Shown: one piece after another, positions 854 to 5,260 of the stretch | How positions within the stretch are numbered: position 1 is the first letter of the stretch | Layout: each line of letters opens with the position of its first letter | DNA from: Baekduia soli | GTDB lineage: Bacteria; Actinomycetota; Thermoleophilia; Solirubrobacterales; Solirubrobacteraceae | Direction: 5' to 3' | DNA length: 64,000 bases | NCBI RefSeq assembly: GCF_007970665.1 | Contig: NZ_CP042430.1 | Coordinates: 4,526,001 to 4,590,000, forward strand | Notes under the pieces: generated by a model | What the model was told of the DNA's origin: nothing | Seen by the model: the letters and a program-made list of their open reading frames with translations, nothing else | The model's database searches: none | Position numbers and translations under genes: made by a program

Positions 854-1456
854 ATGCCGGCCCGCGCCCGTCTGACGCTCCTGCTGACCGCGAGCCTCGT
901 GCTCGTCGCCGCGCTGGCGATCGTGGTCTTCGCGGGCTCGGGCGGCCACGAGCGCTCGGGCAAGGGCTTCGAGGGCTCCCTGCGCCCCGAGGGCATCCCG
1001 CCGGCCGACTTCTCCCTGCGCGACCAGGACGGCAGGACCGTCAGCCTGGCGGCCTACCGCGGCCGGCCGGTGATCCTCACGTTCATGTACTCGACCTGCA
1101 AGGACACGTGCCCGCTCACGGCCCAGCAGATCCGGATCGCGATGGACGACCTCGGCCACGACGTCCCGGCGCTGGCCGTCTCCGTCGACCCGGCCAACGA
1201 CACCGAGCTCAACGCGAAGCGCTTCCTGCTCCAGCAGCACCTCAGCGGACGCATGCGGTTCCTGATGGGCAGCCGCGCGCAGCTGCAGCCCATCTGGAAG
1301 GCCTACGGCATCGAGCCGCAGGGCAAGAAGTTCGACCACTCGGCCTACGTGCTGCTCATCGACGCGCGCGGCGTCCAACGCATCGGCTGGCCCGTGTCCC
1401 AGCTGACGCCCGAGGGCCTGGCGCATGACCTGCGCCTGCTCGGCGCCGCGGCCTGA
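854..1456 (+). CDS. SCO1/SenC family copper chaperone
   Basis: 200 aa. An N-terminal hydrophobic helix (about residues 7-28) anchors the protein on the outer face of the membrane, followed by a thioredoxin-fold SCO domain. The copper-binding C-x3-C motif is C82-K-D-T-C86, and the partner His is H162 in 'KKFDHSAYVLLID'. Proteins of this family deliver copper to the CuA site of cytochrome c oxidase or act as thiol oxidoreductases. The start is set by a TACCCT -10 box at 839-844, nine nt before the ATG, which suggests leaderless mRNA. No oxidase subunit is in the window, but the operon running toward it from 3518 has copper-protein features. Confidence 0.92.
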   Translation: MPARARLTLLLTASLVLVAALAIVVFAGSGGHERSGKGFEGSLRPEGIPPADFSLRDQDGRTVSLAAYRGRPVILTFMYSTCKDTCPLTAQQIRIAMDDLGHDVPALAVSVDPANDTELNAKRFLLQQHLSGRMRFLMGSRAQLQPIWKAYGIEPQGKKFDHSAYVLLIDARGVQRIGWPVSQLTPEGLAHDLRLLGAAA

Positions 1457-1477
1457 GCGCCGCGCGCCCGGCCGCGC

Positions 1478-1642
1478 TCAGACCGGACGGCCCTCGTCGG
1501 GCTCCTCGTCCTCGCCGCCGCCCGAGCGCCGGTCCTTCCAGCTCTGGTAGCCCAGCGCGCCCACGACGACGGCCACGGGCGCCAGGTACAGCAGCCCGGC
1601 GATCCAGTGGCCCGCGTGGGCCACGATGAGCAGCGCGGTCAT
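1478..1642 (-). CDS. small single-span membrane protein
   Basis: 54 aa. One hydrophobic helix (about residues 12-32) is followed by a short polar, acidic tail rich in Glu, Asp and Gly. Its ATG overlaps the stop of the upstream membrane protein as ATGA (1639-1642), so translation is coupled and it is the third gene of an operon transcribed from 3518. Two His residues (in 'AHAGHW') sit at the start of the helix. The family is not recognised. Tiny coupled membrane peptides like this often stabilise a larger membrane partner, here most likely the product of 1639-3063; that role is inference. The gene ends 21 bp from the convergent SCO1 stop. Confidence 0.7.
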   Translation of the reverse strand: MTALLIVAHAGHWIAGLLYLAPVAVVVGALGYQSWKDRRSGGGEDEEPDEGRPV

Positions 1643-3063
1643 TGCTGGGCGGCGGCCGACAGCAGCCACAGGCCGAGGGAGGTGAACGCCACCATGACCG
1701 CCAGCATCCAGTACTGCGAGCGGGTCGCGTCGCGCACGCGGTCGAAGACGGCCAGCGCCCGGTCGTGGGCCAGCGTCAGGCCGGCCACGTGGCCGAGGAC
1801 GAGCGCAGCGACCTGCACGTACCAGATGCCCGTGGCGCTGATCCACGTGTAGTTGATCGTCCACGAGCGCGTGCCCAGCAGGTCGGAGCCGTGACCGAGC
1901 GGGTCGGAGAGCAGGGCGCCCAGCGCCTGGCCCTGGTAGGCCAGCAGCGAGAAGTAGTGCGCCACGACGTAGGCCAGTGCGATGGGGACCAGCGTGTGGG
2001 CGAAGGAGGGCGCCAGCTCGGACGCCGGCCGGCGCCGGCCGACGGTGTGCATCCCGGCCACGCCCAGGCGGTACAGGAGCCCGATGAGGGCGACCATGAC
2101 GAGCATGCCCACCGTGCCCGCCCACTCCAGCGCGTGCTCGGCATTGAGCCCCAGGTCGGCGAAGAAGCTCTGCAGGTGCGGGACGATCGAGTTCCACAGG
2201 CGGCCCTGCGAGAAGCCGTCGAAGCTCGTCGTGCCGATCATCGTGCACAGCAGCGCGACGGTGCCCGCAACGGGCGTCAGCGACGGGACGCCGCCCAGCG
2301 GCGGCCGGCGCCACAGCGCACGATCGTGCCAGTGCAGCGGCGAGACGCAGGCGAAGAGGCCGAAGTAGACGCCGAAGGCGTCGCCGCGCCGCGACCACGC
2401 CTCGACCCCGTAGAGGCTCTGGCCCACGAGCTGCACGGCGGCGTAGGCGACCGCCATGATCGCCAGCTTCGTGGGGTCGTCCTTGTTGGCGTAGACGAGC
2501 TCGACCCAGGCGAAGACGAGGATGCCCACCACGGCCGGCCAGCGCCCCAGCGCCGGCGGGTAGGGCAGCGGGTCCAGCCCCGCGTCGGCGCCGCCGAGCC
2601 GGCGGCTCGCCCACCCCACGGCCTTGCCGACCGCCAGCCAGGGGTTGAACGCGCGGAAGACGTCGCCGAGCAGCGCGGAGGCGAACGGGAACCCGACCCA
2701 GAACAGGACGTAGATGACGGTCGGCGCGAGGTTGGCGGTCGCCGACTGCGTCCCCGCGAAGCCCGCGTAGACCGTGAGGGCGAACGCGGCGACGCCGACC
2801 ATGCCGGCCAGGACCTCCAGGATCCGCGGGACGCCGGCGACGCGGTGCTCGACCACGTGCTGCAGGCGCGGGACGGCCCACAGCACCGCCAGGCCGACGA
2901 ACGAGGCGACGAGCACCACGGCCGCCGCCCAGGCGAACAGCCAGCGCGGGATCGGCAGGTCCTGCTTGCCCACCAGGCCGTGGGCGGAGGCCGCGGCGGG
3001 CAGCGCCAGCGCGGCGGCCGTGACGAGCAGGGCGACGCGCGCGCCGAGGCGCGCGCGGCTCAC
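1639..3063 (-). CDS. polytopic membrane protein with N-terminal signal peptide
   Basis: 474 aa starting at a GTG that overlaps the preceding stop as GTGA. Residues 1-27 form a clear signal peptide (Arg-rich start, Ala/Leu core, 'ASA' cleavage site) and the predicted mature protein begins with His ('HGLVGKQDLPIP'). About ten to twelve hydrophobic helices follow, and several loop His residues are visible ('SPLHWHD', 'GMHTV', 'VAHYF'). No transporter or enzyme motif is obvious. From memory, related proteins in high-GC actinobacteria carry the label 'fenitrothion hydrolase', which I treat as an unreliable inherited name. The cupredoxin-like gene upstream, the small membrane protein downstream and the nearby SCO1 gene suggest a metal or electron-transfer membrane complex (inference). 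Confidence 0.72.
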   Translation of the reverse strand: MSRARLGARVALLVTAAALALPAAASAHGLVGKQDLPIPRWLFAWAAAVVLVASFVGLAVLWAVPRLQHVVEHRVAGVPRILEVLAGMVGVAAFALTVYAGFAGTQSATANLAPTVIYVLFWVGFPFASALLGDVFRAFNPWLAVGKAVGWASRRLGGADAGLDPLPYPPALGRWPAVVGILVFAWVELVYANKDDPTKLAIMAVAYAAVQLVGQSLYGVEAWSRRGDAFGVYFGLFACVSPLHWHDRALWRRPPLGGVPSLTPVAGTVALLCTMIGTTSFDGFSQGRLWNSIVPHLQSFFADLGLNAEHALEWAGTVGMLVMVALIGLLYRLGVAGMHTVGRRRPASELAPSFAHTLVPIALAYVVAHYFSLLAYQGQALGALLSDPLGHGSDLLGTRSWTINYTWISATGIWYVQVAALVLGHVAGLTLAHDRALAVFDRVRDATRSQYWMLAVMVAFTSLGLWLLSAAAQQ

Positions 3064-3518
3064 GGGGTGACCTCGAGCTCGGCGATCTGCGTGGCGTGGC
3101 CCTCGAGCTCGACGACGAACCGGCCCTCGATGCGCCCGGGGATCGTGAAGCTCGCCGAGCCGCCCTGCCCCACGTCGGCGTGGACGTCGTAGCCGTGGAC
3201 GTGGATCTCGTCGGCGGTGTCGGAGCGCACGCGGAAGCGGATCGTGTCGCCGCGCGTGAAGCTCAGGCGCTTGACGCCGCCCTTGGGCCTGGCGTCGACG
3301 ACCTGGACGACGGGGATCGCGGGCGCCTTGGGCGCGGTCTGGGTCGTCGCCGCCGGGATGGTCGCACCGGTCGTCGCCGGCGCGGGCCTCGCGACGGCGA
3401 CCTCGGGAGCCGTCGCCGTGGCCGGGGACGAGTCGTCCGATCCGCGGGCCACGACGAAGGCCACGACGAGCGCGACGACGGCGAGCACGAGGATCGCGAT
3501 CCGGGCGCGGGGCGTCAT
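3060..3518 (-). CDS. membrane-anchored cupredoxin-like protein
   Basis: 152 aa. The ATG at 3518 is preceded by a purine-rich ribosome-binding site (GGAAGGG); an ATG 33 bp upstream has no such site. One N-terminal helix (about residues 5-23) is followed by a Pro/Ala/Thr-rich linker to about residue 75. A C-terminal beta domain has the pattern of EfeO-type cupredoxin-like domains: 'SFTRGDTIRFRVRSD', then the His cluster 'HVHGYDVH', then 'EGH' near the end. The Cys and Met ligands of a blue-copper site are absent, so metal binding would rely on His residues. It is the first gene of a coupled three-gene operon. Confidence 0.75.
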   Translation of the reverse strand: MTPRARIAILVLAVVALVVAFVVARGSDDSSPATATAPEVAVARPAPATTGATIPAATTQTAPKAPAIPVVQVVDARPKGGVKRLSFTRGDTIRFRVRSDTADEIHVHGYDVHADVGQGGSASFTIPGRIEGRFVVELEGHATQIAELEVTP

Positions 3519-3635: not shown

Positions 3636-4379
3636 TCAGCACTTGCCGATGTTCTTGGTCAGCGGCGTCACGACGCCGGCCTCGGAGGTGAACGTCACCG
3701 ACGCGGAGCGCTGCTTGGTCTTGCAGCCGACGGACGAGAAGTAGCCGACCTTCTTGCCCTTGATGGTGCGCGACAGCTTCTTCCACGTGGACTTCACCGA
3801 CGTCACGGCGACGTCGAGCCCGAGCTGGTGGCGCAGGCCGTTCGGCACGGTGAACGAGAGCGCGGCGCCCTTGCTCGTGTTGGCCCACTTGGCGTCGATG
3901 GCCTGCGAGATCGGGGCCACGCAGGCGCCCGGGGCGGTGCCGTCGAGGAACAGCGCGACCTTGTTGGTGCCTGCGGCGTAGGCCGTGAGCGTCAGGGTGC
4001 AGGTGGCGCTCTTGGGCGTGCCGACCTGGCCGATGTCGGCCGAGATCGAGCCGGTGCCGACGATGGCCTTCTTCGAGCAGCCCTGGTCGTTGGTGGCCGC
4101 GTTGATCTTGGCCGCGGTGCACGTCGTGGTGACCGCCCTCGTGTTCACCTTGGCCCCGCCGATGGTGAACTTGTAGGCCTTGACGATCTGCGGCAGGTTG
4201 CCCGCAGGATCGGTGATCGTGTAGTTGAAGCTGAAGCCCGTGATCTTGGGCTTGGCCTTCGTGCCGCCGGCCGGCACCTTGCCGGTGAAGTCATACGCGT
4301 TGGTCTGGGCGAAGGCGGTGGCGGCGATGCCGAGGACGGCGATCAGAGCAGCGACCACGAGGAAGCGCGACTTGCGCAA
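3636..4379 (-). CDS. secreted beta-rich protein of unknown function
   Basis: 247 aa. The TTG start at 4379 is chosen because AGGAGAGA lies just upstream and because a typical signal peptide begins there ('RKSRFLVVAALIAV', cleavage near 'AFAQT'). The mature protein is rich in Thr, Ala, Lys and Gly with alternating hydrophobic residues, as in a beta-sandwich. It has a 'KITGFSFNYTITD' region near the start and seven Cys spread along the chain, including 'TTTCTAAK', 'DQGCSKK', 'ATCTLT', 'APGACVAP', 'VGCKTK' and the C-terminal 'GKC', which suggests disulfides outside the cell. No enzymatic motif is visible. It is followed by a strong terminator-like hairpin and appears monocistronic. Confidence 0.72.
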   Translation of the reverse strand: MRKSRFLVVAALIAVLGIAATAFAQTNAYDFTGKVPAGGTKAKPKITGFSFNYTITDPAGNLPQIVKAYKFTIGGAKVNTRAVTTTCTAAKINAATNDQGCSKKAIVGTGSISADIGQVGTPKSATCTLTLTAYAAGTNKVALFLDGTAPGACVAPISQAIDAKWANTSKGAALSFTVPNGLRHQLGLDVAVTSVKSTWKKLSRTIKGKKVGYFSSVGCKTKQRSASVTFTSEAGVVTPLTKNIGKC

Positions 4380-4513: not shown

Positions 4514-5260
4514 ATGAGGGTGCCCACGGACACGATCGCCGCCCCGATGTTCCCCGCCGCCCTGCGGTGGCTCAACGTGGCGTCCCTGCGCATGGACCAG
4601 CAGCGCGGACGGCCCGTGCTGCTCGAGTTCTTCGACGTCTGCCGGCCGGCCTCCCTGCGGACGCTGCCCTACCTGCAGGCCTGGCACGAGCGCTACGAGG
4701 CCGACGGCCTGCGGGTCATCTCCGTCCACGCGCCCGGCTTCGCACCGGGCCGCGATGAGGCGGTCGTCGCCGCCGCCGTCGCGCGCCTGGGCATCGCGCA
4801 CCCGGTGCTGCTCGACACCGAGCTGCAGCTCTGGCGCATCTACGAGAACGAGGGCTGGCCGGCCCGCTACCTCTTCGACCGCGATCTGCGGCTGTTCGAG
4901 GTCCACTTCGGCGAGGGCGGCTACCACGAGACCGAGGCGGCCATCCAGGAGCTGCTCGGCGTCGAGCGCGACCCGGTCGCCTTCCTGCACCCCGAGGACG
5001 ACCCCGACGCGCGGATCGTCGTCCCCACGCCCGACCAGGAGGGCGCGTGGTCGGGCCCCTACGAGGCCGGCGCGGTCTGGGCGGTGCTCGAGGGGACCGG
5101 GACGCTGCGGGTCAACGGCGCCGACCGCGAGGTCGCCTGGACCGGCGCGCACCTGCTCGTCGACCACGGCCGCCACGAGCACGGCGTGCTCGAGATCGAG
5201 GCCGGGCCGGGAGTGACGGTCCATGCCGTCTGCTTCACGCCGGGTCTGGCCGCGGGCTGA
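4514..5260 (+). CDS. thioredoxin-like protein with C-terminal beta domain
   Basis: 248 aa from the ATG at 4514, which lies ten nt after a TACCGT -10 box (4498-4503). The upstream in-frame ATG at 4448 would add 22 residues of unlikely sequence. Residues 20-150 follow the thioredoxin/TlpA fold ('GRPVLLEFFDVCRPASLR', then 'HPVLLDTELQLWRIYENEG'), but the usual C-x-x-C is reduced to one Cys in 'VCRPAS', so ordinary disulfide exchange is unlikely. Residues 165-248 form a second beta-rich domain ('GTGTLRVNG...HGVLEIEAGPG') resembling the extra domain in DipZ-type proteins. It overlaps the convergent metallophosphoesterase gene by 26 bp. No signal peptide is visible. Confidence 0.75.
   Translation: MRVPTDTIAAPMFPAALRWLNVASLRMDQQRGRPVLLEFFDVCRPASLRTLPYLQAWHERYEADGLRVISVHAPGFAPGRDEAVVAAAVARLGIAHPVLLDTELQLWRIYENEGWPARYLFDRDLRLFEVHFGEGGYHETEAAIQELLGVERDPVAFLHPEDDPDARIVVPTPDQEGAWSGPYEAGAVWAVLEGTGTLRVNGADREVAWTGAHLLVDHGRHEHGVLEIEAGPGVTVHAVCFTPGLAAG

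Follow-up and report, generated by a model that had tools for sequence, protein, structure and literature searches.

What do three overlapping genes of Baekduia soli do beside a gene for a SCO1 protein? The genes lie in a window of 64,000 nucleotides (contig NZ_CP042430.1, positions 4,526,001 to 4,590,000) of a 5.21 Mb, one-contig genome, which its relatives place in Solirubrobacterales near Conexibacter, and encode a membrane-anchored cupredoxin-like protein, a large polytopic membrane protein and a membrane peptide of 54 amino acids. An earlier note on this DNA had proposed a possible copper and electron-transfer membrane module. The analysis described here gives a little better than an even chance to a narrower reading, in which the three minus-strand genes form an extracytoplasmic-to-membrane copper relay, into or across the membrane. 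The anchored cupredoxin-like domain would bind copper outside the membrane via an invariant HxH motif and a nearby Glu, and would hand it to a new polytopic membrane protein; the copper would then be imported or kept for loading cuproenzymes, and in this genome the adjoining SCO1 would be one receiver. The layout of the genes, the conserved residues, the predicted cupredoxin fold and the family's linkage to copper genes are what the analysis shows; from these we infer copper as the ion, a ladder of ligands and a direction of transport, for which import or delivery is more likely than export.

The locus comprises four genes, placed as in the earlier note, and a codon-usage gene caller written for the analysis returned the same four (positions are those of the window):

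854 to 1456, plus strand: SCO1/SenC family gene, 200 amino acids, with a PF02630 match (E 8.3e-21), CxxxC in YSTCKDTCPL and a downstream His in KFDHSAY.
1478 to 1642, minus strand: peptide of 54 amino acids with one membrane helix and an N-terminal ..VAHAGHW motif, from the sequence and the gene caller.
1639 to 1642, minus strand: ATGA overlap of the large-gene stop and the peptide start, seen in the sequence.
1639 to 3063, minus strand: large polytopic membrane protein, 474 amino acids, GTG start, of an unnamed family.
3060 to 3063, minus strand: GTGA overlap of the cupredoxin stop and the large-gene start, seen in the sequence.
3060 to 3518, minus strand: membrane-anchored cupredoxin-like protein, 152 amino acids, by predicted fold.

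The three minus-strand genes are thus joined by the two overlaps and converge on the SCO1 gene, as had been described. Membership of the latter in SCO1/SenC is indicated by the PF02630 match together with CKDTC and KFDHS in the sequence, CxxxC and a distal His being what we take to be the signature residues of the family. The cupredoxin-like, large and 54-amino-acid proteins gave no Pfam or NCBIfam match above cut-off, and the set is not catalogued in the libraries searched, which agrees with the earlier statement that it is not a known copper operon.

The gene company of the large protein was determined in three neighbour sets, consisting of 80 related contigs, 19 plasmid loci and a group of 40 further Actinomycetota loci, of which 39 had a called large gene and several were weak matches. 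The related contigs are those kept from 123 relatives of the large protein in a scan of GTDB genomes, near-duplicates and several paralogues of one genome included; most are titled Solirubrobacterales or other Thermoleophilia, some just 'Actinomycetota', and two are metagenome-assembled genomes titled Bifidobacterium breve. A cupredoxin gene stands directly upstream on the same strand in 33 of 78 related contigs, 20 of 38 further Actinomycetota loci and 7 of 19 plasmids, and at these places it overlaps the large gene by 4 nucleotides in 26 of the 33, 9 of the 20 and 6 of the 7. The small peptide follows directly downstream in 35/78, 4/39 and 0/19 (related contigs, further Actinomycetota, plasmids), 20 of those 35 showing the 4-nucleotide overlap, and SCO lies within four genes in 26/80, 0/39 and 0/19, as counted by a single-query search after an iterated profile had drifted from 35 to 169 members. 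The recurring arrangement exceeds chance. Several families of neighbours are seen repeatedly near the large gene of the related contigs, and part of the neighbourhood is therefore shared by descent, which could mean that the genes are neighbours by inheritance alone, with unrelated jobs for the cupredoxin and the membrane protein and a coincidental SCO. We leave this explanation a small chance, since the overlap of cupredoxin and large gene recurs in the further Actinomycetota and on plasmids, and SCO adjoins the family in a haloarchaeon.

Among 296 evenly sampled Actinomycetota genomes, 65 had a match to the large-protein family, and linkage was tested in 43 of these 65, those with stronger matches. 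CopC was found within 5 kb of the large gene at 5 of its 46 places (0.16 expected), and SCO at 6 of its 16 places (0.07 expected). In a Pfam tally covering 141 of the 300 neighbour proteins of the further-Actinomycetota set, CopC shared first place with one AAA family, each with five. The PpoB2 copper chaperone occurs at 22 places in 15 of the 43 genomes, one of these places adjoining the large-protein family (G183). Oxidase genes, for which the earlier note had proposed a co-occurrence analysis together with SCO1, are not beside the module: the genome of B. soli holds four COX1 genes, none near the module, the nearest being ~56 and ~62 kb away.

Matches to the large protein were found in 63 plasmid records, and the 60 matches listed include mycobacteria, Rhodococcus, Pseudonocardia, Rhizobium, Sulfitobacter, Variovorax and many haloarchaea. 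From the 63 records 27 loci were hand-picked for variety, 26 of them annotated, and their flanks of 5-9 kb were read, giving raw counts. A copper-protein gene is present in the flanks of 12 of the 26 annotated loci: seven hold a cupredoxin by profile and an eighth (L176) by reading of the sequence, two of these eight (L083 and L087) also having copper membrane monooxygenase subunits, and the remaining four hold PCuAC, a multicopper oxidase, SCO, and a multicopper oxidase with a plastocyanin-type protein. Five more loci, all haloarchaeal, have a heavy-metal ATPase of unsettled metal, at three a P19-like 'iron transporter' is the sole metal gene among those counted, and six have no counted metal gene. 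In Sulfitobacter and Natrononativus the gene diverging from the large gene encodes PCuAC or SCO. The slot upstream of the large gene is held by HxH cupredoxins, by CopC in one unnamed family, and by a P19-like protein with a small peptide in Haloferax. Outer copper-binding proteins of unrelated kinds thus adjoin the large gene in different lineages, and we regard this as the best evidence that its product deals with copper on the outer side of the membrane. Taken with the linkage of CopC and SCO above chance, these loci support, by gene company, the copper link proposed in the earlier note.

Several observations weigh against a copper relay. The independent events are few, as four of the linked CopC cases belong to the one unnamed family and a single case stands apart, while the linked SCO cases are all in the window's own order. 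CopC is present in 30 of 43 genomes with the family and in 22 of 43 without it (Fisher P 0.12), a small difference that was not used as support, and SCO in just 12 of the 43 family-bearing genomes. The heavy-metal ATPases are not counted for copper because their motifs leave the metal unsettled: the four of the five haloarchaeal enzymes that were checked have CPC, without YN and MxxSS (one chance YN lies outside such a context), and the M. gallinarum enzyme has SPC, YN and MxxSS presumably being the signatures of Cu(I) pumps. Haloarchaeal loci often hold P19-like and Dyp peroxidase genes, which would suit iron too. Three of four alphaproteobacterial loci are without a copper gene and three of four are beside molybdenum hydroxylase genes, and copper leaves these molybdenum-hydroxylase and catabolic settings unexplained. 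Moreover, metal binding by the relay proteins is itself predicted from sequence.

Two features of the cupredoxin-like protein bear on its proposed role as the outer copper donor:

3447 to 3503, minus strand: N-terminal hydrophobic anchor, from the sequence.
3195 to 3203, minus strand: HxH motif, His106-Val-His108, each His in 64 of 64 sequences.

The 64 cupredoxin sequences, window included, come from genes at the first or second position upstream of the large gene. Both His of the motif occur in all of them and E137 occurs in 63, and neither Cys nor Met is conserved. The soluble domain comprises residues 64-152. AlphaFold2 predicted a cupredoxin fold of eight strands (domain pLDDT, the predicted local distance difference test, 97.5), by which the name 'cupredoxin-like' of the earlier note is correct. 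Its nearest counterparts among solved folds include nitrosocyanin (Z 11.8, root-mean-square deviation (rmsd) 1.8 over 85 of 89) and, from Bacillus anthracis, Cupredoxin_1 (Z 11.2, rmsd 1.9-2.2 over 83-86). A copper-bound Cupredoxin_1 structure (Z 10.6, rmsd 2.1 over 84) is close as well, as is CupA, a copper chaperone of pneumococcus (Z 10.3, rmsd 2.3 over 84). By profile the protein matches nitrosocyanin (E 1.2e-4); the window's member has no Pfam cupredoxin match, and 4 of 36 members match Cupredoxin_1. It differs from nitrosocyanin and Cupredoxin_1 in its HxHGYD motif and in having no conserved Cys, with 9-14% identity in the alignments. The combination of Cys, two His and Met of a type-1 (blue) copper site is not found, and the electron transfer that had been proposed is unsupported because neither Cys nor Met is conserved. 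This pattern of conservation argues that the protein binds metal and is not an electron carrier of the blue copper type. Lipoprotein-like signals were seen in two mycobacterial cupredoxin relatives.

Also matched by the cupredoxin model are EfeO and, from Brucella, FtrB (Z 10.9, rmsd 2.2 over 86). This likeness counts for the main rival explanation, an iron-uptake module like FtrABCD, P19 or EfeUOB, in which the cupredoxin would oxidise or bind iron in the manner of FtrB or EfeO and its large partner would be a new iron permease. These systems combine a cupredoxin-fold partner (FtrB, EfeO) and a P19-like protein with a membrane permease, and the likeness extends to haloarchaeal relatives that adjoin PF10634-type 'iron transporter' (P19-like) and Dyp-type peroxidase genes. 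However, CopC, PCuAC, SCO, multicopper oxidase and copper monooxygenase neighbours, distributed over several lineages, favour copper over iron. Moreover, REXXE, which we assume to be the motif of Ftr1/EfeU permeases, is not among the positions of the large protein conserved in at least 80% of 83 rows, which leaves it outside Ftr1/EfeU. An iron module is therefore considered unlikely.

Known families offered no name for the large protein. Neither it nor 12 diverse members had a Pfam match above cut-off, its profile matched no PDB sequence, and PHROGs returned nothing for it or for the 54-amino-acid peptide. Foldseek with its model gave none at E <= 0.001 among 552 matches, and the best VIA-align row was TTYH2 (Z 7.1, rmsd 9.4 over 145 residues), in the range that the tool calls common; such an absence of a PDB fold match is no proof of a new fold. 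The protein and the 12 members did not match PF05425 or PF09678, which places them outside CopD/CtaG, and hhalign of the large-protein profile against eight CopD-type proteins, a set presumed from its HMxxHM consensus to include CtaG regions, gave probabilities of 0.3% and 0.1%. The name 'fenitrothion hydrolase', considered for such proteins, was dropped; the annotated proteins among the 60 listed plasmid relatives are called 'hypothetical protein'.

The AlphaFold2 model of the mature large protein, built with 65 sequences (pLDDT 92.7, predicted template modelling score 0.91), suggests by its helix positions and the distribution of Lys and Arg that there are ten membrane helices with both ends outside. 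Residue conservation was counted over 83 rows from bacteria and archaea, and the following positions stood out:

1957 to 1959, minus strand: His369, mid-membrane by its place in a model helix (328-359 in mature numbering), 83 of 83 rows.
1789 to 1791, minus strand: His425, mid-membrane by its place in a model helix, 83 of 83 rows.
1765 to 1767, minus strand: His433, probably near the cytoplasmic end of the His425 helix, 82 of 83 rows.
1693 to 1695, minus strand: Met457, in the last helix, probably at the depth of His425, 82 of 83 rows.
2500 to 2502, minus strand: Glu188, at the end of a membrane helix, 80 of 83 rows.

Q450 and D282 are each kept in 79 of the rows, and A368 and G424, the small residues just before His369 and His425, in 80 each; apart from His, the charged positions conserved in at least 80% of rows are E188, R253, D282 and D387. 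According to the places of the residues in the last three model helices, and not to measured distances, H369, H425 and M457 should lie at one mid-membrane depth, with H433 and Q450 forming a second level nearer the cytoplasm. We tentatively raise, as possible but on balance doubtful, a more specific form of the relay, in which the large protein transports copper or acts as a membrane cuproenzyme, has a fold absent from PDB and a metal path leading from an outer Ala-His tail to the mid-membrane His-His-Met layer, and receives copper from interchangeable outer donors (HxH cupredoxin, CopC, P19-like, perhaps PCuAC and SCO) in bacteria and archaea.

The same residues would allow two other functions. 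A haem redox protein, with b-type haem held mid-membrane by His369 and His425 and the cupredoxin as outer donor or acceptor of the electrons passed by the module, is suggested by the invariance of the two His, their expected position at the same depth in neighbouring helices and the small residue before each, as well as by CtaA as one haloarchaeal neighbour and by a neighbour at L136 that resembles cytochrome oxidase subunit III by reading of the sequence alone. It is nevertheless improbable, as the cupredoxin is without the conserved Cys and Met of a redox-active type-1 centre and no Pfam cytochrome match was obtained above cut-off; no cytochrome fold stands out either, which excludes nothing. 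Still less probable is a copper-dependent membrane enzyme for hydrophobic substrates, using the outer His and membrane His, Glu and Asp as its metal site. The invariant His and near-invariant Glu188 and Asp282 would serve such an enzyme, and some plasmids carry the large gene next to genes for copper monooxygenase, soluble diiron monooxygenase and methanol dehydrogenase, others in alphaproteobacterial catabolic clusters, but catabolic clusters are a minority among the loci read and the copper-binding partner genes resemble traffic rather than catalysis. In addition, a copper monooxygenase is not a general partner, because the PF02461 subunit occurs in 1 of the 43 family-bearing genomes.

The outer end of the path proposed for the copper relay depends on the N-terminus of the large protein, which has two relevant features:

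2983 to 3063, minus strand: signal-peptide-like leader, residues 1-27, ending ASA, from the sequence.
2980 to 2982, minus strand: codon of His28, the predicted mature N-terminus; His in 77 of 80 rows and in 74 of the wider set of 83.

The earlier note had predicted that cleavage of the leader exposes this His, giving the free N-terminal His known from copper proteins such as CopC and YcnI. In the protein of the window the leader fits, ending with ASA followed by HG, where cleavage would be expected, and the His is conserved: Ala27 and His28 are each present in ~96% of an 80-row alignment from which open reading frames below 400 amino acids and loci L001 and L002 were left out, and of the three rows without His28, L044 and L048 are read in another frame and L049 is shifted by two residues. 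The prediction does not extend to the family as a whole. By the starts of the codon-usage gene caller, 33 of 65 classified rows (window included) have leaders of signal-peptide length and 32 have at most 13 residues before the His, for example MLVLA then HG, or MFLYA then HA. Eighteen of the 83 rows are unlabelled, and L084, L138, L141 and L145 were set to 'signal peptide' by hand, the label of L084, with an annotated start downstream of the His, being a guess. Long and short leaders interchange at least six times on the tree. Eight loci (L064, L071, L073, L077, L081, L132, L152 and L157) have an in-frame stop 6-13 codons before the His and hence, barring frame error, cannot encode a signal peptide. 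Signal-peptide forms occur also in Haladaptatus and Neorhizobium, and the His is absent from one haloarchaeal group. In the model, residues 1-9 of the mature protein have pLDDT < 50. Since the leader is short in about half of the classified rows and the peptide carries a like motif, the conserved feature would be an Ala-His on the outer N-terminal tail. From its sequence, a free N-terminal His is possible in this protein; it is not the rule in the family.

The like motif of the peptide was evaluated in 50 sequences encoded near the large gene (window included), in which A8 is kept in 46, H9 in 41 and P22 in all 50; the peptide probably has its N-terminus outside. A different small peptide was seen in two haloarchaeal loci (L085, 5468-5725, and L183, 6059-6334), where it overlaps the large gene by 4 nucleotides and begins like a C2H2 zinc finger before a single hydrophobic helix.

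Among known systems, the nearest working model for the relay is, by analogy, YcnI-YcnJ (CopC-CopD) of Bacillus subtilis. This pair likewise joins an extracytoplasmic copper-binding domain to a putative copper importer that is polytopic in the membrane, and has His-based copper sites (PMC12362106, PMC8424229); the outer domains exchange Cu(II) beside the putative importer (PMC12362106). The module of B. soli differs in that the large protein is not CopD and works beside a cupredoxin with HxH instead of a DUF1775 protein. PmoD of copper monooxygenase operons is similarly a membrane-anchored cupredoxin-fold copper protein tied to copper monooxygenase genes, and differs in having conserved Cys and Met (PMC6189053), neither of which is conserved in the cupredoxin described here. 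In open-licence literature on Solirubrobacterales copper, mycobacterial monooxygenases and uncharacterised copper neighbours, the large-protein family appears in no title or abstract opening. Copper intake and routing to cuproenzymes were described in 2025 as little known in whatever bacterial species is considered (PMC12362106). The large-protein family, broad and unnamed, adjoins genes for SCO, CopC, PCuAC, multicopper oxidase and copper monooxygenase, and is thereby a tangible candidate for copper handling, including in haloarchaea and in hydrocarbon-oxidising mycobacteria. Haloferax mediterranei and Mycolicibacterium chubuense NBB4 are tractable hosts of the family, and in the latter the gene lies near the hydrocarbon monooxygenase.

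Further observations concern the spread of the large gene. Svornostia abyssi (L019, L021) carries two copies in one genome, one beside SCO without a cupredoxin match, the other with a cupredoxin and with SCO ~3.8 kb upstream. Long large-protein matches in G111, G235, G278 and G022 contain single in-frame stop codons, which may reflect decay, frame errors or sequencing errors. On the alphaproteobacterial plasmids L086, L095 and L101 the gene is located beside nicotinate/6-hydroxynicotinate-type or other molybdenum hydroxylases and branched-chain amino acid ATP-binding cassette transporters, and on plasmid L100 beside other catabolic genes. In the Actinomycetota family f30 (L135, L137, L140 and L143), a protein of ~610-640 amino acids and a one-helix peptide of 64-77 amino acids precede the cupredoxin and large genes; the longer protein, for which the one tested (L135) had no Pfam match, is possibly a further unnamed partner. 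Ratios of nonsynonymous to synonymous substitution rates ranged from 0.33 to 0.50 in four pairs of large genes, from 0.62 to 0.90 in four cupredoxin pairs and from 0.67 to 0.79 in two peptide pairs, values that are weak and were not used.

The genome of B. soli holds a second module at ~4.021 Mb (L002), with a cupredoxin paralogue of 121 amino acids (HFHGYDVHKDV) and, immediately after it, 26 codons that match the C-terminal end of the large protein; this module seems to have lost nearly all of the large gene, while its cupredoxin stayed open. Upstream of the module in the window, positions 3636-4379 encode a secreted-looking protein of 247 amino acids; in other contigs a secreted family (33 members, 21 loci) occupies the place just ahead of the large gene on its upstream side. 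Finally, the gene at 4520-5260 resembles a thioredoxin-type domain fused to a cupin-like domain, and a family resembling it recurs near the large gene in 15 loci.

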